DNA from: an uncultured Gammaproteobacteria bacterium
GTDB taxonomy: Bacteria; Pseudomonadota; Gammaproteobacteria; Pseudomonadales; Porticoccaceae
DNA length: 64,000 nt
NCBI GenBank assembly: GCA_913058345.1
Contig: CAJXQR010000005.1
Coordinates: 124,001-188,000, forward strand
Direction of reading: 5' to 3'
This document shows positions 14,608 through 59,915 of this stretch, one piece after another (positions within the stretch are counted from its first letter, which is position 1; each line of letters starts with the position of its first letter). A program made the translations under genes and the position numbers. The notes under the pieces were generated by a model, which saw only the letters and a list, made by a program, of their open reading frames with translations, did no database searches and was not told where the DNA came from.

Positions 14608-16689
14608 TTAGTGATATCGAGTCCGTTCTCCCAGTTGTTTCAGTACATTGAGTGCGGGGTGAACGGTCTCGATTTCCTTTGCAGGTAACCCTGGGCCGGG
14701 TGGTGAAAGCTGACCGTAATGCGTTAATTGCAGGGGTGAAAGCTGGCCGATAACATCCCTTAGCTCTGACAGCTTGATGCCCGAGCGAACCAGATAACAG
14801 ATATAACTTTGATGCAGACAAGCACAGTCGATGTTGGATGGGGCTTCGAGGCCGGCATCAATAGCGGCACAGTTAAGCATGGCGTTAAAACTGACCGTTT
14901 GGGCCTGTTCCGTACTGGTCATCCACTGAGGCACCCCCTGCGTTTTTTCCAGCAACTGCTGTAAAACGGAATTCAGAGTTAACATTCTAGGATGAGATGT
15001 CTTGAGTACTATATGTTGCTCGCTGGTTTGACCAGTGCGTGCAAAGCTCTCTGCCGATAATGTGGTGAGTTCATCAGGTCTCACGCCGGATAATAACAGG
15101 GCAATAAGTTGTTGTGTGGGCAGGTCGGCGGCTGAAAGCAGATCTTGTAGTGCCGTTTCGTCGAGTTCTCGTAAGGCCGTCGAGGTCTTGTTGGGAAGGT
15201 ACCCCGGTGACTCTCTTGTTTCGTCAGCCAGCTGGTTCCCTGTCCGGTTTTGATTTGTAACAGCGTTTGTCTCTGTCGTCATCCGAGGATCGAGAACAGT
15301 GACGTAGTGGGGCGCAGGTGGATAATGATCACTTTGTGATTGCGAGCGGCGGAGAAACTCGTATAGCCAAATAGCGAGAAAACCGAGTAACAGGGAGCCC
15401 CCGACAATATAAGCGGCATCACGCCAGTAATAGGGACGAATGGGTTTACTGGAAAGATAGGCTGGCTCAATGACATCAATTTGTGGATATTGCTGTTGTT
15501 GTTCAACGCGCAGTTCGGTGATCTGCTGCTGTACGAAGCGCTTGTGTTCCTCTAGCTGAATTAACTCCTCTTTCTTCGCTTCATGTCGAGAAAAACTGTT
15601 GCTGAACGCCAGCGCAGTTTGCTTGTAGTCGTCAAGCTGACGCTGCAGAGCGATTTCAGCATTTTTGGCGGCTTGATAGTTGCGGGAAGCGCTTGTCAGT
15701 ACGAGCGATTTCCCGGCAGCTTCCTTTTGTGCAATTTGTTTTTCTACAGCGGCTAATTGTTCGGGAACCGCCTTCATTTCCGGATGCAATGCCATGTAGT
15801 CTCGGGTGTACTTATTGTCGAGCTCGGTGAGCTTATCGCGCAGGTTTTGCTGGCGTCGCTGCAAGTCTGAGAAGGCTCGCTCATCGCTGGGGGGTACCAG
15901 CGTTTTGCCCTGCGCAGCCGCAGCCTGCAGGGCATCGAGTTCAGCTTTGCTGGTGATACGTTTTTCAAGCGCGGTATTGAGTGCTTCCGTCAGACCGTTG
16001 AGCTTGGCGTAGACTTCATTTTCATTTCTGCCTAGCGATAGAATATTGTTATTTGCACGAAAGATTTCGAGCTCTTCACGTTTGATAGCGACCTCTTTTT
16101 CTAGACTACGCTGCTGTTCCAATAGCGCACTGCTTGTCTCGTTGACCGCTGCGGCGATGGCTTCACTACGAGACTGCGCATAGGTAGCGACGAGCGTGTT
16201 GAGCAAGACAGGGAGGATGTCTGCGTTGCCTCCTTCGGCGCTGACCTCGACCAAATTGGTTGCCTCGTGGGGTACGACATTGAGCATTTGTTGGAACTGA
16301 GCGCTATCGGGTAACTGCTCCTGAGAGTAACCTTCAAACTGGAGTCGTTTTAATGTGGCATCAATCGTTGTTTTGGCTCTGAGCAGATTCTTTTGTATCA
16401 GCGCGTGCTGCAGACTAGGGTCATCTACTTCAGCGCCAACCCGGTCGGGTGTTACGGTGAGTAATACGGCGGAGCTACTGAAAACGGCGGGTCGACTGAA
16501 ATCGAAAATCAGCCCGAGTGTGGTACATAGGAGGAAGGTTGCAAAAAAAATTCGAAAGCGTTGAGAGTGATACCAGGGCGCTCTTTGTTTAAATGAAGGA
16601 GAGTGGGTCGTTGCGCCAAAGACCGGGGTTTGATACCCGTCGGGATAAGCCCCTGCTGGTTCCACCAGTGGTAATTTGTTGTTAGCCAC
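14608..16689 (-). CDS. Polysaccharide co-polymerase (Wzz/GumC-type) fused to a degenerate tyrosine-recombinase-like domain
   Basis: A 693-residue protein. Residues 1-45 are cytoplasmic, and TM1 is at about 46-64. A large periplasmic region with long coiled coil follows (about 180-400), then the SSKPIRPYY motif (413-421) before TM2 at about 427-446, which is standard for chain-length determinants. A Ser/Asn/Thr/Gln-rich linker (about 448-505) leads to a cytoplasmic domain (about 506-693) where BY-kinases are usually attached. No Walker motif is present. Instead the tail aligns block by block with XerD-like catalytic domains: LDETALQDLLSA, LLLSGVRPDELTTLS (Arg537 at the box I Arg), LKTSHPRMLTL at the beta-hairpin, CLHQSYICYLVRSG at the HxLRH box, and IGQLSPLQLTHY with Tyr658 at the exact nucleophile spacing. 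The box II His and Arg and the LGH His are replaced. It starts 53 bases after the acyl-CoA ligase gene. The PCP assignment is firm and the recombinase-fold assignment is strong by motif order. Confidence 0.85.
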   Translation of the reverse strand: MANNKLPLVEPAGAYPDGYQTPVFGATTHSPSFKQRAPWYHSQRFRIFFATFLLCTTLGLIFDFSRPAVFSSSAVLLTVTPDRVGAEVDDPSLQHALIQKNLLRAKTTIDATLKRLQFEGYSQEQLPDSAQFQQMLNVVPHEATNLVEVSAEGGNADILPVLLNTLVATYAQSRSEAIAAAVNETSSALLEQQRSLEKEVAIKREELEIFRANNNILSLGRNENEVYAKLNGLTEALNTALEKRITSKAELDALQAAAAQGKTLVPPSDERAFSDLQRRQQNLRDKLTELDNKYTRDYMALHPEMKAVPEQLAAVEKQIAQKEAAGKSLVLTSASRNYQAAKNAEIALQRQLDDYKQTALAFSNSFSRHEAKKEELIQLEEHKRFVQQQITELRVEQQQQYPQIDVIEPAYLSSKPIRPYYWRDAAYIVGGSLLLGFLAIWLYEFLRRSQSQSDHYPPAPHYVTVLDPRMTTETNAVTNQNRTGNQLADETRESPGYLPNKTSTALRELDETALQDLLSAADLPTQQLIALLLSGVRPDELTTLSAESFARTGQTSEQHIVLKTSHPRMLTLNSVLQQLLEKTQGVPQWMTSTEQAQTVSFNAMLNCAAIDAGLEAPSNIDCACLHQSYICYLVRSGIKLSELRDVIGQLSPLQLTHYGQLSPPGPGLPAKEIETVHPALNVLKQLGERTRYH

Positions 16690-16742
16690 TTTGCCCTCCC
16701 TGATGCCTTGCCTGTCATTGATGTCTATTGTGTTTGTGGTAT

Positions 16743-33218: not shown

Positions 33219-34571
33219 ATGGGTAGAGTCAATACAACTCCAAACATTAATGTTGTCCCTATAGTTATCGATACTATTCTGGTCGTACTGATGGGTTACT
33301 TCAGTTACTTCCTGCGTTTCGGTGAATGGGTTTTACCGCCGTATTATCATCTGTTTATTTTTGCGGCCAGTTTGACGACAGGCTTAGTACTTGTCGTTTT
33401 TAATTCATACCCCTCTGCTGATTCAAAGCTAAGAGAAATTTTTTTCTATTTCACCAGTCGTGTCGTTTTGTCATTTAGCATTTTTATGATGCTATTGGTG
33501 TTCCTTAAAGTCACCCAGCTGTATTCCCGTCTTTGGCTGGGGGCTTGGATTTCCCTCTCATCATTAGTACTTTTTAGTGCTCATGCCGCTTATCAGCAGC
33601 TGGTTGCCGGATTACAGGCAAAGGGCAAGATGACAAATGACGTGTTGATTGTCTATAGAACCGAACAGGGCTACGACACTTTGAAGGGTATGGACACTGC
33701 TGGTTACCGAATTTGTAAAGAAGTCAATTTGTTGAAAGATGATGTGGAGTGTCACGGGTTGGCTGATCTTGTTGAGAGTTCCAGGGTGTCTGAAGTCTGG
33801 ATTAGTATGCCCTTTAATGACTTCGCAACGGTCGACCAAATCACCTATGAGCTTCGCCACTCTCTGGCTAATATCCGGTTTATCCCGCAACATAATGATG
33901 CCAGATTGCTCAAACACCGTATCAGCTATCTGGGTTCTCAATATACTATTGACCTTAGCTACACGCCTCTCGATGGTTTTAACAGGTGCGTGAAACGACT
34001 TGAAGATTTGATTTTAGCGACGCTGATTAGTTTATCGATAATTCCAGTATGCCTGATAATTGCCTTAGCGATAAGGCTGACTTCAGAAGGCCCCGTCCTT
34101 TTTAAACAAAAACGTAACGGTATGGGTGGCGAAAAAATCACGGTCTACAAGTTTCGCAGTATGGAAGTGCATAATGAGGAGCAAGGCGCAGTCACTCAAG
34201 CAAAAATAGATGATGCTAGGATACCACCTCTAGGACATTTTTTGCGAAGAACAAGTCTTGATGAATTACCGCAGTTTTTTAATGTTCTTCAGGGGCGAAT
34301 GTCTATAGTGGGTCCCCGGCCGCACGCCTTAGTCCACAATGAGTATTATAAAGATCTCGTTCAATCTTATATGTGGCGACATAAAGTGAAACCAGGCATT
34401 ACTGGTTGGGCTCAAATTAATGGATACCGAGGTCGCACCGATACCTTAGAAAAAATGAGCCGCCGAGTCGAACATGATCTTTGGTACATTAACAACTGGA
34501 GCCTTTGGCTTGATCTGAAAATTATTCTAAAGAGTTGCTACAAGGGGTTTTTCAATAAAAATGCATACTGA
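33219..34571 (+). CDS. Undecaprenyl-phosphate sugar phosphotransferase (WcaJ/WbaP type)
   Basis: A 450-residue polyprenyl-phosphate hexose-1-phosphate transferase that starts glycan assembly on the lipid carrier. Four or five N-terminal TM helices (about 10-120) and a CoA-binding-like cytosolic domain (about 140-245) precede the catalytic domain (about 262-450). That domain has KRLEDLILATLISL, SEGPVLFKQKRNGMGGEKITVYKFRSM, RRTSLDELPQFFNVLQGRMSIVGPRPH, VKPGITGWAQINGYRG and DLWYINNWSLWLDLKIILKS. It is the first gene of a long codirectional run reaching prsT. Confidence 0.93.
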   Translation: MGRVNTTPNINVVPIVIDTILVVLMGYFSYFLRFGEWVLPPYYHLFIFAASLTTGLVLVVFNSYPSADSKLREIFFYFTSRVVLSFSIFMMLLVFLKVTQLYSRLWLGAWISLSSLVLFSAHAAYQQLVAGLQAKGKMTNDVLIVYRTEQGYDTLKGMDTAGYRICKEVNLLKDDVECHGLADLVESSRVSEVWISMPFNDFATVDQITYELRHSLANIRFIPQHNDARLLKHRISYLGSQYTIDLSYTPLDGFNRCVKRLEDLILATLISLSIIPVCLIIALAIRLTSEGPVLFKQKRNGMGGEKITVYKFRSMEVHNEEQGAVTQAKIDDARIPPLGHFLRRTSLDELPQFFNVLQGRMSIVGPRPHALVHNEYYKDLVQSYMWRHKVKPGITGWAQINGYRGRTDTLEKMSRRVEHDLWYINNWSLWLDLKIILKSCYKGFFNKNAY

Positions 34572-34613: not shown

Positions 34614-35141
34614 TTGAGTTTTTTTAGAAGCAAGTTTTTTCCTGCCAAGAGTGATTTTAATCAGATCTCAGTCTTAATGGTTTGCACTGCGAACTATTGT
34701 CGCTCGCCTATGGCTGAAGGTATTTTACGACGTAAGCTATATGAGCGAGGTTTGTTACCACAGATTAGAGTCGATTCAGCGGGTACTCATGTGTCAAGAA
34801 AGGGACTGAAACCCGATCTCAGGGCTCAAAAAGTTGTGCGTTCCGCTGGGATTGATATTTCAAAATTACGTTCGCGCAGTATTCGGCCTGTCGATTTTGT
34901 TGAATTTGACTATATTCTAGTAATGGATGAAAGTAATTTGCAGAGTGTCTCCAAACTTTGCCCCCATGAGCACCAACATAAAGTAGCACTGATAATGGCT
35001 TTTACTCCGCAGACAGGTGTGACCGAAGTTCCAGATCCCTACTATAGTAATAAAGCGGGATTTGAGCAGGTGTATACTTTCTTGGAACAAGCTATTACGG
35101 GCTTGGTCATGACGATTGAAGAAAGACACAGCCTGTCTTAG
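34614..35141 (+). CDS. Low-molecular-weight protein tyrosine phosphatase (Wzb-like)
   Basis: A 175-residue LMW-PTP. The P-loop CTANYCRS (Cys24, Arg30) is followed by PMAEGIL, and the general-acid Asp is in VPDPYYS near the C-terminus. Such enzymes dephosphorylate BY-kinases or sugar transferases in capsule/EPS systems. No ATG gives the full domain: the start must be TTG 34614 (weak Shine-Dalgarno) or a shorter non-canonical one, because ATG 34678 would leave only a single residue ahead of the P-loop Cys. No BY-kinase is in the window, so its target may be the sugar transferase upstream or a kinase elsewhere. Confidence 0.87.
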   Translation: MSFFRSKFFPAKSDFNQISVLMVCTANYCRSPMAEGILRRKLYERGLLPQIRVDSAGTHVSRKGLKPDLRAQKVVRSAGIDISKLRSRSIRPVDFVEFDYILVMDESNLQSVSKLCPHEHQHKVALIMAFTPQTGVTEVPDPYYSNKAGFEQVYTFLEQAITGLVMTIEERHSLS

Positions 35142-35258: not shown

Positions 35259-36005
35259 ATGGATAATGAAAAGGAGTCGCTTACAAGGAGGTTTCTACAG
35301 TACTTTCAGGTCGAGTTGGCGACCAGTGCGGAGGATAAAAGAGCTATATATGAAGTCCGGTACCGTGTGTATTGTGAAGAGTTTAAATATGAATCAGGTG
35401 AGAGCTTTCCCGATAAGGCTGAAATGGATGAGTATGATGAAAGGTCTTTGCACTGCCTGATTAGGCATAAAAGCAGTGGTAGAGCGGCTGGTTGTGTTCG
35501 GCTGGTACCCGCAAGCAAGAATATCACTGAGCTCTTACCTTTTGAGAAGTTCTGTGCTGAAAGCGTTGATCACGTGTTTGTTGATAGCCTGAATACTGAG
35601 CGTTCTCACATAGCCGAAATTTCTCGTCTAGCTGTTGATGGTGCTTTTCGTCGTCGCCCTGGTGAAGTCGCAACTCGCTTTGGTGGGATAGAGGCTTTGG
35701 ATTGTTCGGCTGCGGAAACACGCACTTTTTCGCTCATTGCTATATCCGGCTTTCTCGCTTCTGCTGCGTTGGCAGAGTTATCTGGGCGGAGTGATGTGTT
35801 TGCCATGATGGAACCCTTTTTGCCTCGCTTGGTCAGTCGCTCTGGGATTTGCTGGCAACAAGCGGGAAGGCCTATTCAGTATCATGGTGAAAGGGCCCTC
35901 TATTATATAAAAACACAGTCAGCAGTGGATAATATGCTTCCCGACTTGAAGGAGCTTTACTTGGCGATTTATCAGGAAATAGCAGATACATACTCCGCCT
36001 GTTAG
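35259..36005 (+). CDS. PEP-CTERM/exosortase-associated N-acyltransferase (FeeM-like N-acyl amino acid synthase family)
   Basis: A 248-residue GNAT-like protein of the family annotated as PEP-CTERM/exosortase system-associated acyltransferase. The FeeM/autoinducer-synthase-like start is AIYEVRYRVYCEEFKYE, followed by DEYDERSLHCLIRHKSSGRAAGCVRLV and AEISRLAVDGAFRRR. Published work (Craig and co-workers) linked long-chain N-acyl amino acid synthases to PEP-CTERM loci. The expected reaction is transfer of a long-chain acyl group from ACP to an amino acid; which one is not visible. It is followed by the E1–nitroreductase fusion and an efflux pair, suggesting modification and export of the product. 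Confidence 0.85.
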   Translation: MDNEKESLTRRFLQYFQVELATSAEDKRAIYEVRYRVYCEEFKYESGESFPDKAEMDEYDERSLHCLIRHKSSGRAAGCVRLVPASKNITELLPFEKFCAESVDHVFVDSLNTERSHIAEISRLAVDGAFRRRPGEVATRFGGIEALDCSAAETRTFSLIAISGFLASAALAELSGRSDVFAMMEPFLPRLVSRSGICWQQAGRPIQYHGERALYYIKTQSAVDNMLPDLKELYLAIYQEIADTYSAC

Positions 36006-36086
36006 CCAAGCAGCTGTTAGGGATGAATGACTGATTGTTTATTATCTCCTAGGTATGTGAGACTGACATCCATAAAGGGCAAAAAT

Positions 36087-38054
36087 ATGCTAGCAGAACA
36101 TTTTGACTATGATGTTGCTTTTTCACGAAATTTGGGGTGGGTGAACGAAGCTGAGCAACACTTACTGCGCACTAAACGTATAGCCATTGCAGGTTTAGGG
36201 GGTGTGGGTGGTAGTCACCTGCTTACATTGACGCGCCTGGGTATTGGCAATTTCAATATTGCTGATCTCGATATTTTTGAGCAGGAAAATTTTAATCGCC
36301 AGGCAGGAGCGAGTTTGCCTCACGTTGGGCGTGAAAAAATTGATGTGCTGCAGGAACTGGCTCTGGGTATCAATCCCGAGTTGAACTTTCATAAATTTTC
36401 ATCGGGAGTTGATGCGAACAATCTCGATGCATTTCTCGATGGTGTTGACCTCTATGTTGATGCCCTCGATTTCTTCGCTGTCGAAATACGTCGGGCTGTG
36501 TTTGCTGCTTGTGCTGAGAAGGGTATTCCGGCGATTACAGCTGCACCACTGGGAATGGGTGTTGCTTTTCTCGCTTTTCTGCCAGGGCAAATGAGTTTTG
36601 AGGAGTATTTTCGTCTGGCGGGTCGGGCAGAAGATGAGCAGCTGCTACGTTTTTTGCTGGGCTTGTCACCGGCAATGCTTCAAGCTAAGTATTTGGTTGA
36701 TGATACTCGTCTCGATCTTAACGCCCATAAAGGACCATCAACGCCCATGGCCTGTGAGCTTTGTGCCGGCATGGCGGGCACTCACGCGTTAAAGTTGCTC
36801 TTGAATCGAGGCGATGTGCCTGCAGCCCCTAGAGGGCTTCATTTCGATGCCTATCGTAACAAGATGGTGAAAACCTGGCGGCCTATGGGTAATGATAATC
36901 CCATTCAGCGCCTCGGCTTGAAGATTGTCCGTCAACGCTTGTCAGCGAAGATGTCAGAAACGCCCGAAAACATACAGTCTACGCCAGCAACCGTGATTGA
37001 GAGAATACTCGACTACGCCCGTTGGGCGCCGAGCGGTGACAATACTCAGCCCTGGCAATTTGAAATAGTCAGTGACAAGCATTTTGTTATTTATACTCGT
37101 GATACCAGAAATTGGTGTGTTTATGATCTAGCCGGGCGTGCTAGCCAAACATCGGCGGGCACCTTACTTGAAAATATTTCGATTGCCGCTTTGAGCGAAG
37201 GACTGGAGGCTTCGTTTACGCTACGTGATCCGGCAGTTGATGCCGAGCCTGTTATCGATGTGCTTTTGACGGCTTTGTCTCAGCACACTGAAAAGCCACC
37301 GCTACTCCCTTACATTCAAGTGCGCAGCGTGCAGCGCTTACCGCTGTCTACGCAGCCTTTGATGGAAGCACATAAGCAGGCACTGGAGAAAGCCGTTGGC
37401 TCAGGTTATCGCCTGATCTGGATCGAAGGTCGCCAAAAAAAATGGCAAATCACACGCTTATTGCTGCGGGCAGCGAGCATTCGCTTAACGATTCCAGAAG
37501 TTTATGAAGTCCATAAAAAAATTATTCACTGGGGTGTTCAGTTTAGTAGTGACCGTATTCCCGATCAGGCCTTAGGGGCAGATAGCGTCACAGTGAAAAT
37601 GATGAAATGGGCTTTAAAAAGTTGGTCGCGGGTTAAAATGCTCAATCGCTATTTCGCTGGCACTGTAATGCCTCGAATACAACTCGATCTAATACCTGGT
37701 CTCCGCTGTGGCGCCCATTTTATCATCGTTGCCGACACCCCTCGTGTTAAAACTGCTGACTATTTGGATGGTGGGCGGGCAGTACAACGGTTTTGGCTCA
37801 CTGCAACTAAACTCCATTTACAGCTACAGCCAGAGATGACGCCACTCATCTTTTCGACCTATTCCCGAGAAGGTCGGCGATTTACCGACAATGCTGATAA
37901 ACAAGCGGCAGCTGACACCCTGCGATTGGAGCTTGATGCCTTGAGTGGAGGAGAGGTCGATGCCGTATTCATGGGGCGGCTTGGTTATGGTGCGGCCGCT
38001 TCCTCGCGCTCCTTACGTAAGCCATTACAACAGTTAAAAACAGTTAAAAAATAA
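36087..38054 (+). CDS. ThiF/E1-like adenylation enzyme fused to a nitroreductase-like domain (Rv1355c type)
   Basis: A 655-residue protein. ATG 36087 has AAAGGG upstream; an in-frame ATG at 36027 adds 20 residues without a site. Residues about 28-270 are ThiF/MoeB-like: IAIAGLGGVGGSHLLTLTRLG (nucleotide loop 36-42), DLDIFEQENFNRQ with the conserved Asp/Asn/Arg, YVDALDFF, and a CELC pair near 222. Residues about 300-620 resemble FMN nitroreductases (VIERILDYARWAPSGDNTQPWQFEI). The same architecture is annotated in actinobacteria as Rv1355c family. E1-like enzymes adenylate a carboxylate, often a C-terminus or an amino acid, and nitroreductases oxidise or reduce heterocycles. The combination next to an N-acyl amino acid synthase points to tailoring of that product, which is inference. 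Confidence 0.8.
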   Translation: MLAEHFDYDVAFSRNLGWVNEAEQHLLRTKRIAIAGLGGVGGSHLLTLTRLGIGNFNIADLDIFEQENFNRQAGASLPHVGREKIDVLQELALGINPELNFHKFSSGVDANNLDAFLDGVDLYVDALDFFAVEIRRAVFAACAEKGIPAITAAPLGMGVAFLAFLPGQMSFEEYFRLAGRAEDEQLLRFLLGLSPAMLQAKYLVDDTRLDLNAHKGPSTPMACELCAGMAGTHALKLLLNRGDVPAAPRGLHFDAYRNKMVKTWRPMGNDNPIQRLGLKIVRQRLSAKMSETPENIQSTPATVIERILDYARWAPSGDNTQPWQFEIVSDKHFVIYTRDTRNWCVYDLAGRASQTSAGTLLENISIAALSEGLEASFTLRDPAVDAEPVIDVLLTALSQHTEKPPLLPYIQVRSVQRLPLSTQPLMEAHKQALEKAVGSGYRLIWIEGRQKKWQITRLLLRAASIRLTIPEVYEVHKKIIHWGVQFSSDRIPDQALGADSVTVKMMKWALKSWSRVKMLNRYFAGTVMPRIQLDLIPGLRCGAHFIIVADTPRVKTADYLDGGRAVQRFWLTATKLHLQLQPEMTPLIFSTYSREGRRFTDNADKQAAADTLRLELDALSGGEVDAVFMGRLGYGAAASSRSLRKPLQQLKTVKK

Positions 38055-38113
38055 TCAGGCATATCGGTCGTTATGGCCGTGCTGGCCAAGTACCGTTCAC
38101 CACAGGCTTTAGA

Positions 38114-39136
38114 ATGACAATGAATTGTTTTTATAGAATGATTGTTTTTATCATAATGACTCACTGTTGTTCTCAGCTTGCTGCTGAACCGACGCCGGTG
38201 ACCACGAAAAAGATAGCCGATGTGTTGTTTTATCCTGTACGTGATGCACCTTCCACAACGTTGAGTTTGAATGACACGCGTGTGAGTAGTCAGCTGAAGG
38301 GCATCCTCAAAGAGATTAATGTACGGGTTGGCGACAGTGTCAAGCAAGGTAACGTGCTTGCTAGTATGGACTGTGAAGACTATAAGATTGCTGTCACCCA
38401 GGCTACCGCTGCACTCACTGCTCAACGTGCGACCTTGAAATTTGACCGTTCTCGCTTGAAAAAAGTCACTCAGCTCTCGAAGAAAAAAAATATATCCACT
38501 GAAGAGGTAGAGAGGCGCACATCTAATGCGGCTATTTCTGCTGCGGATGTTGAAGGTTTAAAGGCATCATTGAGAGCGACTGAGCGAGCAGTGGAGAAAT
38601 GCGCTATTCGGGCTCCCTATGATGCGGTTGTGATCTCTAAAATAGCTAATGTTGGTGATTATCTGGTACCCGGCAGTCCCGTTTTACGCTTACTTGACCG
38701 AGATAATGTTGAGGTGTCTGCGAAAGTGCAAGAGCAAGATCTAGCCTTGTTAAAACAGTCGGGAAATACAGCCTTTATCGCCAATGAAAAACGTTATCCG
38801 CTTAAATTAAGGGCCATTTTGCCGCTTATGGAAAGCCGTATTCGCAGTTACGAAGTGCGTCTCGAATTTACTGACGATAAGGCCTATCCGGGTAGTGCCG
38901 GGCGCACCGAATGGCTTACCCCGACACCCTACATACCTGCAGAATTTTTAGTGCGGCGTAAAGGCTTGGGTGTGTTTTTGGCTGTTGCTGGCCGAGCCCG
39001 TTTTATACCTTTACCTGCAGCGAATGCAGGGCAGCCCGCAGCACTTGCTCCCCCGCTGACAAAAAGCAGTAACGTCATTATTAACGGCCGTTTTAAAATA
39101 AACGATGGAGATGCAGTGCGAGTCGTAGAGCACTAA
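38114..39136 (+). CDS. HlyD/AcrA-type RND periplasmic adaptor
   Basis: A 340-residue adaptor. The signal peptide is MIVFIIMTHCCSQLAA. The lipoyl half-motifs are QLKGILKEINVRVGDSVKQGNVLASMD and CAIRAPYDAVVISKIANVGDYLVPGSPVLRLLD, which bracket an alpha-helical hairpin (about 85-150). A beta-barrel and membrane-proximal domain complete it. It connects an inner-membrane RND permease to an outer-membrane channel; the permease gene starts 4 bases after its stop. No TolC-type gene is in the window. Confidence 0.9.
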   Translation: MTMNCFYRMIVFIIMTHCCSQLAAEPTPVTTKKIADVLFYPVRDAPSTTLSLNDTRVSSQLKGILKEINVRVGDSVKQGNVLASMDCEDYKIAVTQATAALTAQRATLKFDRSRLKKVTQLSKKKNISTEEVERRTSNAAISAADVEGLKASLRATERAVEKCAIRAPYDAVVISKIANVGDYLVPGSPVLRLLDRDNVEVSAKVQEQDLALLKQSGNTAFIANEKRYPLKLRAILPLMESRIRSYEVRLEFTDDKAYPGSAGRTEWLTPTPYIPAEFLVRRKGLGVFLAVAGRARFIPLPAANAGQPAALAPPLTKSSNVIINGRFKINDGDAVRVVEH

Positions 39137-39140
39137 GCCC

Positions 39141-42620: not shown

Positions 42621-42851
42621 CTACTACAAAATGAAATCGCTTTGGTGTATGGCTGTATGATTTTTTATGCCAATGTTACACTCAGCTAGTACGGTTTATC
42701 TTCCTAAAGAGCCTCTGATTACGTCAAATACGATGTTGTGACTTGTTCAGGAGCTCCTCGACGTGCAGCCTGCGGCCAAGTGCTAATTTCAGGTCTTTTA
42801 ATAATATTTGTCAGATTTGATGATTCGAGTTTGATGATAATGAGGTATGTA

Positions 42852-45548
42852 ATGTGTCCACACCGTAAGCCCAATACTATCAACAAACTGATCCTGCTGT
42901 TTTTTATCGTTGCTGGGCTGTCAGCCTGTAGTGCTGATATAAGTTCTGATGAATATGTCGCTCGCGCCATTGAGCAGCAATCAGAAGGTGATGTAAATGC
43001 TGCGGTTATTGAACTAAAAAATGCATTGCAAAAAACACCTCGGCATAAAGAAGCCCGTTATTTGTTGGGAACCCTTTATCTTGAACAGGGCGCGCTAATT
43101 TCGGCTGAAAAGGAGTTCTATCGAGCTATTGATTACGGTGTGGAACCCAGTGCAGTCGCTGTACCACTGGCACGCACATTATTAGCACAGGGTAAATTTC
43201 AGGAATTACTGGATAGTACAAATGATCTTTCTTTTACGTCGGCCTACACGCAGGCTAATCTGTTGGCGCTTAAGGGGCAGGCGTACTTGGGCCTGGCAAG
43301 GCTTGACGCTGCAGAGCAATTGTATGATCAGGCTTTGCAATTGGACGAAGAGAATGCAGAAGCCAAAACAGGTCTAGCCCAGCTTGCGATAGTGCGAAAC
43401 CAGGATGATGCGGCTCGGCAATATGTTACCGCTGTGTTGAAACAAACACCCGATTTTGCCTTTGCTCAATCTCTACTCGGCTTGATTGAATTGCGAGCTA
43501 GTAATCTGGAGGCTGCCGAGCAAGCCTATCGGTCTGCAGCTGAACACCCGCTATACAAAAGCCACTCCCAGATACAACTTGGTTTTATCTATATTCAGCT
43601 AAAGCAATTCGACAAAGCTGAAGAGATGGTGGCTTTGTTAAAACAGCGCATAAAAGGGAGTCCTCAGGTTGATTATTTAGAAGGTTTCCTGGCCTTTAAT
43701 CAGCAGAATTTTAAAGACGCAAAAGACTTATTTGACGCTTTACTGGGTAAAGACCCCAATCATCTACGTGGTTTGTTTTATGCCGGCTCAACAAATGCTT
43801 ATTTGGGTAATTTTGCTTCTGCTAAAAATCAACTGGAGCAGCATTTAAAGGCTAATCCTGGCAATGTGTATGCGCAAACATTATTGGCCCAGGTTGAATT
43901 GGCCGAGGGCAACCCTGCTCATGCTCAACACTTGATTTTGAGTGTTCTTGAAAGGTTTCCTGACGACTTGATGGCCTTGAACCTTCTTGCCGGTGTCTCT
44001 TTAAGTCAGGGTAGTTCACAGGAGGCATTGAGCAGTTTACAAAAAGCCGCACAGGCTCAGCCAACATCCGTTGAGACACAAATACGTTTGGGCAACCTTT
44101 TAGCTGGACAAGGACAAGTTGAGGCTAGCTTGCTGCAATTGGAGCAGGCCTATGAGTCAGAGCCCGATAACGGTCGGGTGGTTGAAACACTGGTGCGGCA
44201 GTATTTAAGTGCCGGTGAAAATGACAAAGCCTTGGCTGTGGCGGAGAAGCACTTGGCGCTTAACCCCAACCGGCCCCTACCCCATGCTCTGATGGGCATG
44301 GTGTTTATGAGTTTAAACGATAATGAGGCCGCTGAAGAAGCATTGCAGAGAGCCTTGAATATCGACCCCAGTGCGACATCAATTTACAATGGTCTGGCGG
44401 CTTTGGCTATCCGTGGCGAGGAGTTAGATACAGCTGAGCAGCATCTTCGAAAGGCGCTCAGCTATCGGCCCGGGGATTATCAAACGGTCACTAATCTTGT
44501 CACTCTGAAGAGGATACAGGGCAAGCAAGCAGATATTGCCAATATTCTTGAAGAGGCTGTCGACGTTGAACCGCGCGTCGAGTTTCAATTAAGGTTGGGA
44601 CGAATTTATCTCGATGATAATGAGCCCCAGAGAACACTAGATCTTCTAAGTAATGTTCAGGGTAGTAATAATACGCAAAAAGCCAACCTCTTTGGTTTGC
44701 GTGCTGAAGCCCTTTTGGCAGTTGGGCAATACAGTGATGCCAGGCAAGCCTTGAATGAGTTGCTTGTGTTGGCGCCAAAAACTGCCGTCGTGCACTTTTA
44801 TCTTGCCCAGGCGGCTCAAGGGCTCAATGAGAGAGTGGTCATGCGAGAAGAGCTCGAGACGGCTACCCAGCTGGACGCTAACTATCTACCCGCTAAAATA
44901 GCACTGGCACGTATGGCCATTGAAGATAGAGATATTGCGGTCGCCAAGCAATGGCTGGCAGAGCTGGAAGGCCAAGTTAAACCGGATAATGCCGATGTCA
45001 CATTGATCAAGGCTCAGCTGTCTGAATTAACGAACGACCTGCCGGCAGCGATTACAGCCTATCAGCGCTTATTTGACCGGAACCCCAGTGCCAGTGCTCT
45101 GCTGCCCTTAACAAGGGTGCAGTGGCGTAATGGCGACAAAGATATAGCCTTGACGTCTTTGCAAAGCTGGACAGAAGCTAATCCTCGTGAGCGGCTCGTT
45201 AAACACGACCTTGCACTGCGGTATATGGCGCTGCAGCGCAACGATGATGCTGTTGCAACCTACACAGCCCTGATAAAAAATGAGCCTGAGGATGCGCTGG
45301 CATTAAATAACCTGGCATCCTTATTAACCGTTTCTAAGCCCAAAGTGGCATTGGATTACGCCAGGCGAGCTTATGCTCTGTTTCCAGAAGACCCCGCTGC
45401 TATCGATACCCTTTCAGGGGCGATGTTGGCTAACAACGATATCGTTGGGGCGCAGCGGATGATAGAGAGAGCCCTGGCGAAGGAGCCAAATAATACGGCA
45501 TTTTTGTCTCGACAAGAGCAAATTCAACGTGTGAGTGGTCAGCGCTAA
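42852..45548 (+). CDS. prsT: PEP-CTERM system TPR-repeat lipoprotein PrsT (copy 1)
   Basis: About 898 residues. ATG 42852 has TGAGG at proper spacing, and the N-terminal lipobox AGLSAC (Cys near residue 27) predicts an outer- or inner-membrane lipoprotein. The rest is almost entirely TPR helices, many with the A-x-x-x-[YF]-x-x-A/L-L pattern, e.g. EAEEALQRALNIDPSATSIYNGLAAL. PrsT is one of the conserved proteins of exosortase-A loci and is thought to take part in EPS or protein export across the periplasm. It ends the run that starts at 33219; a second copy lies at 53424. Confidence 0.88.
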   Translation: MCPHRKPNTINKLILLFFIVAGLSACSADISSDEYVARAIEQQSEGDVNAAVIELKNALQKTPRHKEARYLLGTLYLEQGALISAEKEFYRAIDYGVEPSAVAVPLARTLLAQGKFQELLDSTNDLSFTSAYTQANLLALKGQAYLGLARLDAAEQLYDQALQLDEENAEAKTGLAQLAIVRNQDDAARQYVTAVLKQTPDFAFAQSLLGLIELRASNLEAAEQAYRSAAEHPLYKSHSQIQLGFIYIQLKQFDKAEEMVALLKQRIKGSPQVDYLEGFLAFNQQNFKDAKDLFDALLGKDPNHLRGLFYAGSTNAYLGNFASAKNQLEQHLKANPGNVYAQTLLAQVELAEGNPAHAQHLILSVLERFPDDLMALNLLAGVSLSQGSSQEALSSLQKAAQAQPTSVETQIRLGNLLAGQGQVEASLLQLEQAYESEPDNGRVVETLVRQYLSAGENDKALAVAEKHLALNPNRPLPHALMGMVFMSLNDNEAAEEALQRALNIDPSATSIYNGLAALAIRGEELDTAEQHLRKALSYRPGDYQTVTNLVTLKRIQGKQADIANILEEAVDVEPRVEFQLRLGRIYLDDNEPQRTLDLLSNVQGSNNTQKANLFGLRAEALLAVGQYSDARQALNELLVLAPKTAVVHFYLAQAAQGLNERVVMREELETATQLDANYLPAKIALARMAIEDRDIAVAKQWLAELEGQVKPDNADVTLIKAQLSELTNDLPAAITAYQRLFDRNPSASALLPLTRVQWRNGDKDIALTSLQSWTEANPRERLVKHDLALRYMALQRNDDAVATYTALIKNEPEDALALNNLASLLTVSKPKVALDYARRAYALFPEDPAAIDTLSGAMLANNDIVGAQRMIERALAKEPNNTAFLSRQEQIQRVSGQR

Positions 45549-46117: not shown

Positions 46118-46966
46118 ATGACTATGTTGAGTAAAGTGAAAATAGTAGGTGCAGCCTCACTGCTGGCCTTGAGCGTTGGTGCACAGGCAAATGTTGTCGA
46201 CCTGTTCACAGATCCTGTGGCGGGGCAGAAGGTTGATACCGATGGGCTTGCTACAGGCACGAGCGTCTACAATGAAATCGGTTCTTACGCCAGTATAATT
46301 GGCGGGTACCGCAGTTTAGAAATTGTAGAGGTTTCGGATGGTAATACTCTTCCGTTGCAGAATGGTGCTTCAATGGTTGCTGGCGGTGGTGAGCTTGCCT
46401 TTAATAGTGGTACGGCTATTGAAGCGGTAGGCACTCTCCAATGGGATGGCAACGATGCTTCATCAGATTTAACAAAAACCGGCATGGGCTCAGAGAACCT
46501 GGTTGTCCAAGCGGGCTGTCCAGCGGGTGGATGTGACCGGTTTATTTTTGATGTCTTAGAAGCAGATCACGCCTTCGATTTTACTATCGGTCTTTATACT
46601 GATGATGATTATTGGACAGAGTTTGATTTGACAGCTACGACTGGTGCACACACCAGTGAGATTTTCTTTTCGTTCTTTGAAAATGCGGCTGGATGCGGTC
46701 TTGCAGGTTCCCCCCCACTGCCATCCGGTGTTGTCGCGCAAAGATGCGGTACTTCCGGAGTTGCTGATGTGGAAAGCATCGGTGCGATCCAGTTAATCTT
46801 TAATCTTGATCCATTGACTACAGCGCTTGATTTTAGAATTGGTGCTGTCACCAAAACAGGTGTTCCAGAGCCTAGTATGGTTGCCTTATTGGGCTTGGGC
46901 TTAGCATCTTCTGGCCTGGTGTCAATTCGCCGCCGCAGAAAAGAGAAAGCATTGCTGGCTGACTAG
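46118..46966 (+). CDS. PEP-CTERM sorting-domain protein (exosortase substrate)
   Basis: A 282-residue exported protein. The signal peptide is KIVGAASLLALSVGAQA. The body is of unknown fold, rich in Gly/Asp/Thr, with one paired-Cys motif GCPAGGCD. The C-terminus is a canonical sorting signal: VPEPSMVALLGLGLASSGLV, then SIRRRRKEK, with PEP at residues 250-252 before the TM helix and basic tail. Exosortase would cleave near PEP and release or attach the protein to the surface matrix. ATG 46118 (AAGGAG 11 bases upstream) and ATG 46124 (CAGGAG 7 bases upstream) are both possible starts. It has its own sigma-54 promoter and terminator. Confidence 0.93.
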   Translation: MTMLSKVKIVGAASLLALSVGAQANVVDLFTDPVAGQKVDTDGLATGTSVYNEIGSYASIIGGYRSLEIVEVSDGNTLPLQNGASMVAGGGELAFNSGTAIEAVGTLQWDGNDASSDLTKTGMGSENLVVQAGCPAGGCDRFIFDVLEADHAFDFTIGLYTDDDYWTEFDLTATTGAHTSEIFFSFFENAAGCGLAGSPPLPSGVVAQRCGTSGVADVESIGAIQLIFNLDPLTTALDFRIGAVTKTGVPEPSMVALLGLGLASSGLVSIRRRRKEKALLAD

Positions 46967-53423: not shown

Positions 53424-56195
53424 ATGAAACAGCTTTATCATGTTGTGGTAATACTGTCTTTGGTCGGTCTTTTTGCCTGTGGCGAAAGTACCACGACAAG
53501 TGAATATGTCGATAATGCTCGGCGTTATCTAGATGATGGCAAAACGACAGCCGCTATTATCGAGCTTAAAAATGCTTTAAAAATTGAGGGAGATAATGCC
53601 GAGGCTCGATGGTTGCTCGGAAAGGTTTATTTCGATCAGGACGATATGCCGAGTGCGGATAAAGAGTTGCGTCATGCAAGAAAGCTTGGTGTTTCAAAGG
53701 ATCAGGTCTTGCCCTTGCTGGCCCAGGCTTTTTTACGTCAGACCAAACTTGATGAGCTTCAGGCCTTATCTGTAGAAACCTTAAGGACTGAAGCCTTGGC
53801 GACGGTTTTGTCTGCGCAGGGCTTGGGGAAGTTAGCTGAGAATGAGGTCGTAGCTGGAGGAAGATTAATTGAGCGAGCGGTCGGTGAAGCCCCGCAGCTA
53901 GCTTATGCCCAAATGGCAAAAGCCCGATTGTTGCAGGCGGGTGGTGATGCAGATTTGGTTCTTGCGCAGCTTAATGTGATCTTTGCAATTGACCCCGATT
54001 ACTCTCAGGCTTTGAGTTTGCTTGGCGATCTGGAGTTGCAGAAAAACGAGTTTAAAGCTGCCGAGCAAGCTTATACCCGTGCAATTGATGGGGGCTCATC
54101 TAAGGCGGAAAAATTTGCGAATACGCTGAAGCGAGCAATAGTCCGTATCACCCTGCAGCAACTTGATGCTGCTCAGATCGATGCGACTTACTTGCTTGCC
54201 ACAGCACCTAAGCACCCGAGTGCCCACTATGTGCAGGGCATGATTAATTTTCAGCAGAAAAAGATGGTAGAGGCAAAAGAGTCACTAATTCAGGCCCTGC
54301 CAGCAAAAGAACGTCACCCCCAGATAGTCTATTACCTCTCCGCATTGCACTTGCTGGAGGGTGAGCGTGAGCAAGCGACGGCCTATGCTAGTGAGTTTCA
54401 TGGACTTGCCCCTAACAATATAGCAGGGAGAAAGTTACTGGCAACAATTCGTCTCGCTGAGCGTGATTACGCGCAGGTCGAAAAGCTACTTCGCCCTGTG
54501 TTAGCGCTGGGTCAGAATGATGCGGGCGCAATGAATCTGCTCGCCAATGCATTGCTGCGTCAGGGGAAAACGGATGAAGCGATCGATTTGTTGTCGGAAG
54601 TTGCGGAGCTGGCCCCCGATTCCCCGACGGCACAGATGCGCCTGGGCGCCGGTATGTTGGTTGGCGGTGAGCAGGCGGGAGTGGAATATATTGAGTCTGC
54701 GTTGCGTTTAAATCCGGACTACCAGCAAGGTGAAATACTGCTGGTGCTAAATTACTTGCGTCAAAATGAGCCTGGTAAAGCATTACAGGCAGCAGAGGCT
54801 TACCGTGATCGTCAACCTGAAAATGTGACGCCCTATAATTTGTTAGGTCGTGTACACATGGAATCAAAAAGAAAGGAGGCAGCACAAGAGGCCTTTCAGC
54901 AAGCTCGATCGATATCGCCGGGGGATCCGTTTGCTTGTCAGAGCCTAGCTTTGTTTGCTGTGCAAGATAAACAATACAGTGCGGCTGAAAGCTACTATAA
55001 AGAGATTCTCGAACACCATGAGGATTATTTACCGGCTTTGCTGAAAATCGCCGCTTTAAAACAGCTGGAAGGTGACGAGGATGCAATGCTCGTTTATCTA
55101 GAGCGTGCGATGGAGGCGCATCCATCAGCTTACCAGCCTCGGTTAATATTGGCGCGTTTACACTTGTCAAAAGGGCGTTCAGATAAAGTGGCTGTATTGC
55201 TCAGTGGTTTAGAGGACTGGGATGGAAATCCTGAGTTATTGCATGTTGCGGGTGTTGCTCAGCTGGCAGAAAAGAACTATCACTCCGCCCAGGTCTCGTT
55301 CGATAAACTGGTGCAGCTTCAGCCTGATGGAGCTGTCGGGCATTATCTCCTGGCCCGAGCCCATGAAGGCCTGGGTCGCCATGAGCTTGTGTCGGGAGGC
55401 TTGCAGCAAGCGATTGAGCTTGCTCCTGACTATATTGAACCTCGTGTGGCTCTGGCTCGTCTGTCCTTACAGCAGAAGAATAATGTCGCTTTTGAGGAGC
55501 AATTAAAAAAGCTCAAAGTCTTGGCTCCAGACAATCCGGCAATATGGCAGCTGCAAATTGCGGAGGCAAAGCTAAAAGGGGATAAGGCGGGCGAACTGGC
55601 GATCTATGAAAAAGCCTTTAAGACGATGCCAAGCACTTCCACTTTACTTGGCTTCGCTGAGCAAAGGCTGTCTTTCGGTGATACGGATGGTGCCTTGGGG
55701 CTATATAAAACCTGGATTGTCGATAACCCAAAAGACGTGTCTGCCCGTCTGGCATTGGCGAATATGCATGTTAAAAATGGAGGGGCTGACTTGGCCATGT
55801 CTCAGTACCAGCATGTGTTAGAGCACGACGGTAGTAACTTGGTTGCGCTGAATAACCTAGCCTGGTTCTTACGTGATTCTAAGCCAAAGCAAGCACTTGA
55901 GTACGCCAGAAAAGCCGAAGAAGTTGATGGAGAGTCTGCGGCCGTGCAGGATACTTTAGCCATGGCTTTTATGGCTGATGGTCAGCTCAGTGAGGCGAAA
56001 AAGGCGATTGACAACGCCCTTGGTAAAACACCGGATAACCTCTCAATGCGCTATCATCGTGTGTTGATTAACCTCGCCTTGGGCCAAAAGAGTAGTGCTC
56101 TCAGTGAGTTGAAGCGCTTGTTGAAATCTGGGGAGGGATTTTCAGAAAGACCGGATGCAGAGGCTTTGATGCAAGAGCTTTCTACCAGTAGTTAA
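53424..56195 (+). CDS. prsT: PEP-CTERM system TPR-repeat lipoprotein PrsT (copy 2)
   Basis: 923 residues. The lipobox LVGLFAC (Cys19) marks a lipoprotein. The mature start ESTTTSEYVDNARRYLDDGKTTAAIIELKNALK closely parallels copy 1 (SDEYVARAIEQQSEGDVNAAVIELKNALQ). TPR units fill the length, e.g. AEQAYTRAIDGG, AQEAFQQARSISPGDPFACQSLAL, and the C-terminal LVALNNLAWFLRDSKPKQALEYARKAEEV, which also matches copy 1. It should act in the periplasm with the exosortase/EPS machinery. It stands alone on the plus strand, 359 bases before the acyltransferase fusion. Confidence 0.9.
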   Translation: MKQLYHVVVILSLVGLFACGESTTTSEYVDNARRYLDDGKTTAAIIELKNALKIEGDNAEARWLLGKVYFDQDDMPSADKELRHARKLGVSKDQVLPLLAQAFLRQTKLDELQALSVETLRTEALATVLSAQGLGKLAENEVVAGGRLIERAVGEAPQLAYAQMAKARLLQAGGDADLVLAQLNVIFAIDPDYSQALSLLGDLELQKNEFKAAEQAYTRAIDGGSSKAEKFANTLKRAIVRITLQQLDAAQIDATYLLATAPKHPSAHYVQGMINFQQKKMVEAKESLIQALPAKERHPQIVYYLSALHLLEGEREQATAYASEFHGLAPNNIAGRKLLATIRLAERDYAQVEKLLRPVLALGQNDAGAMNLLANALLRQGKTDEAIDLLSEVAELAPDSPTAQMRLGAGMLVGGEQAGVEYIESALRLNPDYQQGEILLVLNYLRQNEPGKALQAAEAYRDRQPENVTPYNLLGRVHMESKRKEAAQEAFQQARSISPGDPFACQSLALFAVQDKQYSAAESYYKEILEHHEDYLPALLKIAALKQLEGDEDAMLVYLERAMEAHPSAYQPRLILARLHLSKGRSDKVAVLLSGLEDWDGNPELLHVAGVAQLAEKNYHSAQVSFDKLVQLQPDGAVGHYLLARAHEGLGRHELVSGGLQQAIELAPDYIEPRVALARLSLQQKNNVAFEEQLKKLKVLAPDNPAIWQLQIAEAKLKGDKAGELAIYEKAFKTMPSTSTLLGFAEQRLSFGDTDGALGLYKTWIVDNPKDVSARLALANMHVKNGGADLAMSQYQHVLEHDGSNLVALNNLAWFLRDSKPKQALEYARKAEEVDGESAAVQDTLAMAFMADGQLSEAKKAIDNALGKTPDNLSMRYHRVLINLALGQKSSALSELKRLLKSGEGFSERPDAEALMQELSTSS

Positions 56196-58403: not shown

Positions 58404-59915
58404 ATGGAAAAGTTGGATGCAGGGGTCGTTACCAAGGTAGGCCTTGATGAGCTACACCCCAGAGCCAAAGGCCGTGAGGGGCTCCGCTTGCCTCACGTCC
58501 GTGGTGCAACGGGAAAATTTCGATTATTTGGTCATTATGTCCATGTGCAATTCCTGCTGCTCGCTTTTTCAGAACTTGCGGTAATTTTTACACTGAGTCT
58601 CGCGATAAATAATTATTTTGTCGCTGTAACAAGCCCCGGTGGTGAAGCTTCGATCTTTGATGTTGGGTCTAAAATAGTCCTGATGTCAATCGTGTTTGTC
58701 TTATTCATGGTGGCAATGGGCTTGTACGACACACGTCAACGAGAAAGACTGTCTGGCTTGGTTGCACGGTTGATAGCTGCATTGCTGTTCGCCTCAGTTG
58801 CCCTTCTGGTGTTTTATCAGTTAATACCATCCCTCGCCGTTGCTGACGGCGTTTTAAAGACGAGTGCTGTTGCTTCTGTCGTTAGTCTGGCTGTTATTCG
58901 TGCATTATTTTATAGATTCGTCGATGGTCGAGTCTTATTGCGACGAGTACTCGTTGTGGGGGCGGGTAAGAACGCTCTATTTATTGACAGGTTGCGCCGT
59001 AAAGCCGATATGCGCGGCTTTCACTTAGTTGGGTTCGTTAATTCGGGGGCAAATCAGGGTGTTCAGGTTGACCAGAGTAGGGTTCTCCAGCTCGACAAAA
59101 CCTTGTGTGCTTACGCTTTGGAGAATGATATTGACGAAGTTGTTGTGGCCCTTGATGATCGTAGAGAAAATTTGCCGACAGATGATTTGTTGAATTGTCG
59201 AATGAGCGGTATTGATATTACAGACACGCTTGACTTTTTTGAGCGAGAAAGTGCACTGATACAACTAGACCTTGTTCACCCTGGCTGGTTAATTCATGCT
59301 GGTGGTTTCAAGCGAAATTTTATGCGATCTGGTGTAAAGCGAAGCTTTGATATATTAGTGAGCATTTTTCTCCTTGTATTTAGCTCGCCTTTTATGTTGC
59401 TGGCTACGGTAGCGATTTTGTTGGAAAGTCGTGGTAAAGGTCCTATTTTTTATAGTCAGCAGCGCGTCGGCCGTAATAACCAGTATTTCAATGTGCACAA
59501 ATTTCGCAGCATGAAAACAGATGCGGAGTCCGATGGCGTAGCTCGCTGGGCGCAAAAGGATGATCCCCGTGTTACGAGGGTAGGGGCTTTTATTCGAAAG
59601 TATCGGCTTGACGAATTACCGCAACTGTGGAATGTGCTGGTGGGCGATATGAGTTTAGTGGGTCCTAGACCGGAACGCCCTGAGTTCGTTAAGGAGTTAT
59701 GTCAGGCCAATCCTCTTTATAGTGAGCGACACAGAGTCCGCCCAGGGATTACGGGTTGGGCCCAGTTGTGTTATCCCTATGGCGCTTCCGCTGAGGATTC
59801 TATGTCGAAGCTACAATATGATTTATATTATGTGAAGAACCATAGTCTCTTCCTGGATGCCTATACCTTAATCCAGACCGTTGAGGTTGTTCTCTTTAAA
59901 AAAGGTTCTCGCTAA
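58404..59915 (+). CDS. PEP-CTERM-associated polyprenyl glycosylphosphotransferase (EpsB type)
   Basis: A 503-residue sugar transferase of the kind annotated as PEP-CTERM system associated (TIGR03013-like). N-terminal TM helices (about 47-165) are followed by a Rossmann-like domain with RRVLVVGAGKNALFIDRL, then VDVVVVALDDRRENLP-like sequence (DEVVVALDDRRENLP). The catalytic domain has KRSFDILVSIFLLVFSSPFM, SRGKGPIFYSQQRVGRNNQYFNVHKFRSMK, YRLDELPQLWNVLVGDMSLVGPRPERPEF and VRPGITGWAQLCYPYG. It loads the first sugar phosphate on the lipid carrier for EPS made with the exosortase system. It is distinct from the WcaJ-type enzyme at 33219. ATG follows AAGGATTAAGTAA. Confidence 0.92.
   Translation: MEKLDAGVVTKVGLDELHPRAKGREGLRLPHVRGATGKFRLFGHYVHVQFLLLAFSELAVIFTLSLAINNYFVAVTSPGGEASIFDVGSKIVLMSIVFVLFMVAMGLYDTRQRERLSGLVARLIAALLFASVALLVFYQLIPSLAVADGVLKTSAVASVVSLAVIRALFYRFVDGRVLLRRVLVVGAGKNALFIDRLRRKADMRGFHLVGFVNSGANQGVQVDQSRVLQLDKTLCAYALENDIDEVVVALDDRRENLPTDDLLNCRMSGIDITDTLDFFERESALIQLDLVHPGWLIHAGGFKRNFMRSGVKRSFDILVSIFLLVFSSPFMLLATVAILLESRGKGPIFYSQQRVGRNNQYFNVHKFRSMKTDAESDGVARWAQKDDPRVTRVGAFIRKYRLDELPQLWNVLVGDMSLVGPRPERPEFVKELCQANPLYSERHRVRPGITGWAQLCYPYGASAEDSMSKLQYDLYYVKNHSLFLDAYTLIQTVEVVLFKKGSR

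Follow-up and report, generated by a model that had tools for sequence, protein, structure and literature searches.

A polysaccharide co-polymerase carrying a dead tyrosine-recombinase-like tail in an uncultured Porticoccaceae bacterium

The cytoplasmic side of polysaccharide co-polymerases (PCPs) is the site of their known control, phosphorylation by a bacterial tyrosine kinase (BY-kinase). PslE of Pseudomonas is a kinase-free PCP, and to our knowledge the control of kinase-free PCPs is an open question. For Wzc, one report describes a cycle between a dephosphorylated octamer and a phosphorylated monomer, in which autophosphorylation disassembles the ring (PMC8285477). Here, we analyzed a PCP gene whose product ends in a tail of the tyrosine recombinase type. 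The gene lies in a 64,000-nucleotide stretch (the window) of contig CAJXQR010000005.1 from an uncultured gammaproteobacterium of the family Porticoccaceae. The tail has lost the catalytic set of a recombinase, and full-length fusions were found in 44 genomes.

Two groups of described PCPs resemble the fusion. Wzc, a PCP-2a protein with a BY-kinase (PDB 7nhr, 7ni2, and 9r62), is alike in its PCP region and in having a second transmembrane (TM) helix followed by a cytoplasmic domain. The fusion has neither the BY-kinase nor the Tyr-rich tail of Wzc, carries a dead recombinase core instead, and forms a separate clade in the PCP tree. PslE (9v6l and 9v75) is also a PCP; the match of our family profile to it stops at residue 486, out of about 662-670, after which PslE has a C-terminal part of its own. 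Unlike recombinases, PslE is absent from the matches of a tail-only profile at an expectation value (E) ≤ 1. Among named families, the XrtA determinant TIGR03007 is the best for the PCP part of the fusion, which nevertheless scores far under its cut-off.

For the tail, XerC, XerD, XerA, and the integron integrases share homology of the catalytic domain and a distance of 32 residues from box II to the Tyr. In contrast to these enzymes, the fusion tail has no core-binding domain and no catalytic set, and it is acidic and membrane anchored. The closest precedent for a dead recombinase is MrpR/YopR of phage SPbeta (PDB 8A0A). As described in one paper (PMC10516654), both catalytic Arg positions of MrpR are changed or shifted while Glu, Lys, and Tyr are kept, and the protein is a soluble repressor of two domains that binds DNA and has a positive groove. 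The fusion tail likewise is a recombinase-like domain without the pair of catalytic arginines, and YopR was among the top six Foldseek matches of our tail model, although weakly (E 0.3). The fusion tail differs in being a single acidic domain on a membrane PCP. No description of a PCP-recombinase fusion was found in titles and abstract openings of the open-licence literature, among the matches listed.

Domain composition of the fusion protein

The open reading frame at 14608-16689 (minus strand) has 693 codons, a GTG start, and a TAA stop, with AGGGAGGG 4 bases 5' of the start. Its parts are as follows.

14608..16689, minus strand: whole gene, 693 amino acids (aa), a PCP with a dead tyrosine-recombinase-like tail
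16694..16701, minus strand: AGGGAGGG, probable ribosome-binding site, judged from its sequence
16495..16560, minus strand: TM helix 1, residues 44-65 (hydropathy windows; helix 40-57 in a low-confidence model)
15421..16494, minus strand: periplasmic PCP region, residues 66-423 (TIGR03007 match at 130-449; Wzc/PslE matches of the family profile)
15352..15420, minus strand: TM helix 2 (TM2), residues 424-446 (hydropathy)
15178..15351, minus strand: variable linker on the cytoplasmic side, residues 447-504 (44 members average 22% pairwise identity)
14611..15177, minus strand: tyrosine-recombinase-like catalytic-fold tail, residues 505-693 (profile matches)
15055..15087, minus strand: box I equivalent GVRPDELTTLS, residues 535-545 (family alignment)
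14974..15006, minus strand: beta-hairpin equivalent LKTSHPRMLTL, residues 562-572 (family alignment)
14779..14820, minus strand: box II equivalent CLHQSYICYLVRSG, residues 624-637 (the catalytic Arg is His here)
14716..14751, minus strand: IGQLSPLQLTHY, residues 647-658, with Tyr658 at the nucleophile position (family alignment)
14656..14661, minus strand: C-terminal His-Pro, residues 677-678 (family alignment)

A first-pass annotation, made from the sequence alone, had read the N-terminal part as a chain-length co-polymerase. This reading held. Two TM helices flank a periplasmic domain homologous to known PCPs, which in the low-confidence model contains long helices. The NCBIfam scan matched residues 130-449 to TIGR03007 (XrtA-type chain length determinant) at E 5.3e-10 and 38.1 bits, against a curated cut-off of 278.85. 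Pfam gave nothing at E ≤ 0.01 for the window protein, and Wzz (PF02706) was matched at this threshold by 6 of 15 family members, which do not include the window protein. When a profile built from 15 full-length members (A2) was searched against PDB sequences at E ≤ 0.01, it matched 20 distinct sequences, namely 10 Wzc/PslE, 9 recombinases or integrases, and 1 other, a weak ESAT-6-like chain (0.008). Its N-terminal part found seven Wzc sequences at 1.3e-12 to 3.6e-12, a shorter Wzc chain at 9.9e-8, and two PslE at 1.4e-4 and 1.5e-4. The boundary is not sharp towards the Wzc side, because the best stretch of five Wzc sequences reaches profile position 526, past the linker. The gene product is an inner-membrane PCP that probably belongs to an exosortase-type exopolysaccharide (EPS) system, and by the topology of PCPs residues 447-693, after TM2, would be cytoplasmic.

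The same annotation had placed a tyrosine-recombinase-type domain where relatives carry the kinase. No kinase family was found in the Pfam and NCBIfam scans of the window protein at E ≤ 10. The window tail alone matched XerD (NF002685) weakly, at E 0.0025 (0.0029 in a repeat scan). Its best Pfam match was DUF7085 at 0.041, far under the cut-off, and PF00589 was not listed for the window protein at E ≤ 10, a scan whose filters discard most matches above about 0.1. The relatives gave much stronger matches. One of them (L015) passed the PF00589 gathering cut-off (31.6 versus 27.1 bits), and at E ≤ 0.01 this family was matched by 5 of 15 members (not the window protein), NF040815 (XerA/integron integrase) by 9 of 15 tails (best 3.7e-12), and NF002685 by 8 of 15 tails.

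Searches against PDB agreed with these scans. The tail part of A2 matched XerC-like 4a8e best (9.5e-12) and XerD 1a0p at 5.3e-7, and the C-terminal part also matched XerA and IntI4. With the tail-only profile, 15 sequences were obtained at E ≤ 1, of which the first 13 were recombinases or integrases and the last two weak non-recombinases (0.0074 and 1); 4a8e was matched at 5.9e-11 over profile positions 3-169. An hhalign comparison of the tails with eight recombinases of the same genome gave 98.2% probability over 163 columns. Thus, the profile search that the annotation had proposed returned strong recombinase matches through the relatives. The homology of about residues 505-693 to the tyrosine recombinase catalytic domain is confirmed at the sequence level, having been settled through other members of the family.

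The six peptides on which the annotation had relied are all present, at residues 509-520, 535-545, 562-572, 601-614, 624-637, and 647-658. It had also pointed to an exact spacing from box II to the Tyr. The spacing stood: 32 residues separate the box II Arg position (His626) from Tyr658, as they separate R290 from Y322 in L001, an XerC/D-type recombinase of the same genome. What had been overlooked is that the box II Arg itself is His here.

Predicted structures were of low confidence. A tail model built from 3 sequences (predicted local distance difference test [pLDDT] 58.7) had the expected order of helices, three short strands, and helices. Its top six Foldseek matches were XerA (3), Cre (2), and YopR (1), at E 0.03-0.39 and query TM-scores (TMq) of 0.30-0.38, followed by non-recombinases. 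The full-length model reached a pLDDT of 42.7.

Loss of the catalytic set and selection on the tail

The catalytic boxes are named and interpreted here as established for tyrosine recombinases, whose functional set is R-K-H-R-H/W-Y. In the 44 full-length fusion members (10 families in the tool's grouping), no tail keeps more than three of these six residues: three are kept in 4 members, two in 33, and one in 7. The box I Arg is kept in 4/44, the Lys column holds K in 2/44, and His or Lys at -3 of box II is found in 0/44. Box III has His in 3/44 and no Trp. The box II Arg (37/44), the box II His (32/44), and the Tyr at the nucleophile position (39/44) are mostly kept. In the genus of the window, however, the box II Arg is lost in 4/4 members read (3 His, 1 Gln). 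An active recombinase was therefore ruled out, as both arginines occur together in 0/44. Judged by its residues, the tail is no working recombinase.

The positions of structural weight behave differently from the catalytic ones. G535, G637, L643, and G648 are present in 44/44, E540 and R568 in 43/44 each, and P678 in 42/44. In 40/44, this C-terminal Pro follows the Tyr by 20 residues; it is preceded by His in 27, Tyr in 14, Phe in 2, and Met in 1. Two XerC/D-type recombinases of the same genome (L001 and L002) carry HPRA, with Pro 17 residues after the Tyr, a possible counterpart of this element, and an integron-type one (L003) ends in SPLDI.

Charge and architecture also separate the tails from true recombinases. 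By whole-domain count, the net charge is negative in 44/44 tails and positive in 8/8 true recombinases of the genome. In place of an N-terminal core-binding domain, the stretch between the end of TM2 and the tail holds only a linker of low conservation, 37-62 residues long. The first-pass annotation had considered a link between chain length and DNA. Such a link is unlikely, because the catalytic set is lost and all tails are acidic where true recombinases are basic, with the linker replacing the core-binding domain.

The tail is under purifying selection. Mean pairwise identity among the 44 members is 37% for the tail and 40% for the PCP domain. For the four genus members (six pairs), the ratio of nonsynonymous to synonymous substitution rates (dN/dS) by the Nei-Gojobori method was 0.15-0.22 for the tail (6/6 pairs), 0.07-0.11 for the PCP domain (3/6 pairs computable, the rest saturated), and 0.13-0.46 for the linker (6/6 pairs). 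These values are rough, because the method was applied at a tail dS of 0.84 to 1.96.

Distribution, ancestry, and surroundings

Among close relatives, 11 of 58 genomes (own included) matched at E ≤ 0.001, with 7 full-length, 1 broken (G006), and 3 PCP-region-only proteins. In the order, 27 of 390 genomes matched at E ≤ 1e-8. Of these matches, 5 were full-length, 6 were tailless short PCPs, and 16 were longer proteins matched in the PCP region only. Three of these 16 (663-733 aa, one of them truncated at a contig end) have, by eye, kinase-like sequence after the PCP region. In the class, 6 of 369 genomes matched at E ≤ 1e-20, all full-length, and in the phylum 13 of 299 matched, with full-length proteins only in the own genome and G733. 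G660's order gave matches in 60 of 151 genomes. A full tail was scored there when the match reached position 660 or more of 669, which gave 46 matches to the tail end (one N-terminally cut), 11 tailless (8 of them read), 2 broken or split (G1114 and G1170), and 1 that a contig end truncates ahead of the tail (G1036). By these counts, the family occurs sporadically across the class and is common in one order. A methane/ammonia monooxygenase subunit was found in 8 of 10 tested genomes of this order and in 10 of 19 tested overall, own included.

Several individual copies were also recorded. In the genus of the window, G006 (L017 and L022) has a broken fusion gene with one in-frame TAG and a gap in the matches between query residues 264 and 549. 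L125 (G1170) and L126 (G1114) are more broken or split copies, in the other order. Genus g552 (L117-L119 and others) has five tailless copies with a TAG, in which the match extends to profile position 497-499; the three copies read contained no tail sequence behind the TAG. The own genome carries its subunit of the ammonia/particulate methane monooxygenase (AMO/pMMO) family outside the window (G000:C8:170921-171604; PF02461, 3.8e-77).

A tree of the PCP part was calculated from 63 sequences (44 fusions, 14 tailless, and 5 Wzc), with the root drawn at the midpoint. Fusions and tailless proteins were separated from Wzc at 100/100, in a tree with long branches that include L053, L027, and L054, the last of which may be falsely drawn to Wzc. 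The tailless proteins formed two clades within, three changes in total. One gain and two losses of the tail would fit this tree, which favors a single origin of the fusion. The 44 tails formed one clade against 8 recombinases (99/95, in a small comparison set). Most recent groups are shared by the tail and PCP trees; L050, L053, and L054 and the deep L018, L025, and L026 are placed differently. No tail remnant was found at 14 of 14 tailless loci (about 4 kb examined; best E 0.34).

Immediately upstream of the fusion gene, 5/5 of the genus have an acyl-CoA ligase-like gene (by eye), and a HAD-phosphatase-like gene (by eye) is common to the window genus and G040. Outside the genus, the family recurring most, in 5 neighborhoods, is peptidase-type ABC transporter-like by eye. 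In G002 and G006, the gene adjoining the other side of the fusion (L013:111-992 and L022:2118-3197) encodes a product with a PEP-CTERM-type end, by eye. An EPS operon at the fusion was rejected: when ten EPS-region genes of the window were compared by blastp with 20 neighborhoods and the own surroundings, only a weak exosortase-acyltransferase match (G1091) and a CRP-like match (G216) were obtained. XrtA-type EPS genes and a PEP-CTERM-type protein are located in the window about 16.5 to 43 kb from the fusion gene.

33219..34571, plus strand: WcaJ-type undecaprenyl-phosphate glucose phosphotransferase (TIGR03023, above cut-off)
34614..35141, plus strand: low molecular weight tyrosine phosphatase, Wzb-like (family match)
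35259..36005, plus strand: PEP-CTERM/exosortase-associated acyltransferase (TIGR03694, above cut-off)
42738..45548, plus strand: XrtA/PEP-CTERM TPR protein PrsT (TIGR02917, above cut-off)
46118..46966, plus strand: protein with a PEP-CTERM-type C terminus (VPEP, hydrophobic stretch, RRRR; pattern), no family match at E ≤ 1e-5 or 1e-10
53424..56195, plus strand: second PrsT (TIGR02917, above cut-off)
58404..59915, plus strand: EpsB_2 XrtA/PEP-CTERM-system glycosyltransferase (TIGR03013, above cut-off)

The two PrsT genes lie less than 14 kb apart. The stretch 35259-42620 holds an exosortase-associated N-acyl amino acid synthase-like gene beside a ThiF/nitroreductase-like protein, as well as an HlyD protein and a 1159-aa RND transporter, and is perhaps a cluster making and exporting an acyl amino acid product.

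The genome also encodes further PCPs, one of the Wzc type and one of the XrtA type, the latter next to a kinase-like gene. Its true TIGR03007 protein is a separate one (C7:41995-43491, a 519-aa frame). In a survey of 32 family-bearing genomes (25 tailed or broken, 7 tailless), 27 had a TIGR03007 protein above cut-off. In G660's order, exosortase (TIGR03109, E ≤ 1e-20) was found in 57 of 60 family-bearing genomes versus 38 of 91 others (Fisher 2.5e-12, not phylogeny-corrected), and XrtA above cut-off in 41 of 60 versus 13 of 91 (2.1e-11, likewise uncorrected).

Possible roles of the tail

Tyrosine recombinase protomers assemble head to tail into cycles by exchanging C-terminal segments, and the C-terminal end of XerC/D is a contact region. 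Such a cyclic assembly matches the ring of a PCP, and the tail would therefore be a cytoplasmic collar. Since the fold and the C-terminal segment are kept rather than the chemistry, a collar is the favored reading, and an oligomerization role is plausible. In this model, two TM helices would hold the periplasmic PCP domain, with the flexible linker and the dead recombinase fold following TM2. The recombinase core would have been kept for a nonchemical property, its cyclic head-to-tail assembly. Each protomer would pass its C-terminal segment to a neighbor, giving a collar under the PCP ring. We infer that this collar would hold or gate the ring and thereby influence chain length and export, at the place where Wzc has its phosphorylatable kinase. 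We put this reading first, ahead of a docking adaptor, a phospho-ligand switch, and a DNA tether in that order, and hold it tentatively, at slightly less than an even chance. A broader picture, in which a multi-family group of EPS PCPs has replaced kinase control with a dead recombinase, cyclic contacts form the collar, an Arg/Tyr pocket kept in most members reads a phosphorylated ligand, and chain length is set without autophosphorylation, is doubtful as a whole.

Several observations weigh against the collar and its proposed role. The box II Arg and the Tyr are mostly kept and would not be needed for a purely structural function, and the tail model (pLDDT 58.7) had no Foldseek match at E ≤ 0.001. 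The gene stands alone, outside any EPS operon, and of the 16 extra-genus neighborhoods, some of which are cut by contig ends, at most 5 share any one other family. The tail is dispensable in some members, because two lineages live without it and show no remnant in the roughly 4 kb examined. The fusion PCP need not be the main regulator, because the genome has Wzc-type and XrtA-type PCPs; an XrtA PCP above cut-off is missing from 5 of the 32 surveyed family-bearing genomes. The exosortase correlation belongs to the PCP family and not to the tail, because the 60 genomes include tailless and broken members.

Instead of forming a ring itself, the tail might be an adaptor that docks a cytoplasmic partner, such as an initiating glycosyltransferase, a separate tyrosine kinase, or a polymerase. 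The acidic domain, the variable linker, and the solitary gene would suit such an adaptor, as would the kinase-like and EpsB_2 genes elsewhere in the genome. However, no consistent partner gene adjoins the fusion, and the C-terminal segment with its fixed spacing, though compatible with docking, is a more specific feature than a generic dock would require. This explanation is unlikely, although it is the most serious competitor of the collar.

Another reading is a switch. Here the tail would sense a phosphorylated ligand or itself be phosphorylated, with the box II Arg and the Tyr site switching the PCP. The retention of the box II Arg and His and the Tyr, in contrast to the box I Arg, points this way, and a Wzb-like tyrosine phosphatase gene lies within the window. 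Against it, all four members read of the window genus have lost the box II Arg and 5 of the 44 tails have no Tyr, which makes a phospho-switch rather improbable.

A tail that binds DNA would anchor the EPS apparatus to the chromosome, in the manner of an MrpR relative bound to the membrane. Apart from the precedent of MrpR/YopR as a dead tyrosine recombinase that binds DNA (PMC10516654), the evidence runs the other way: the tails are acidic throughout and recombinases basic, the core-binding domain is absent, and most catalytic phosphate contacts are gone. A tether is very unlikely.

Equally hard to sustain is a functionless leftover of an accidental, tolerated fusion with a recombinase gene. 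The loss of the tail in two lineages and the fusion genes that are broken or split in G006, G1114, and G1170 would be expected of such a leftover, but the low dN/dS of the tail and its conservation close to that of the PCP domain across 44 members and 10 families would not. An assembly or frame artefact joining two genes, which the first-pass annotation had named as a danger, has nothing but the oddness of the combination in its favor and is ruled out for practical purposes by independent full-length copies without inner stops in many genomes.

The recurrence of this PCP-tail combination in related bacteria of several families points to the recruitment of an ancient DNA enzyme for a new function. 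The conserved fusion with a dead recombinase core offers a concrete, testable alternative to kinase control of PCPs, and it extends the known uses of repurposed tyrosine recombinases to one that is membrane anchored and apparently does not involve DNA. The family is frequent in an order in which most of the genomes tested have a methane/ammonia monooxygenase, and exopolysaccharide may matter there for biofilms.

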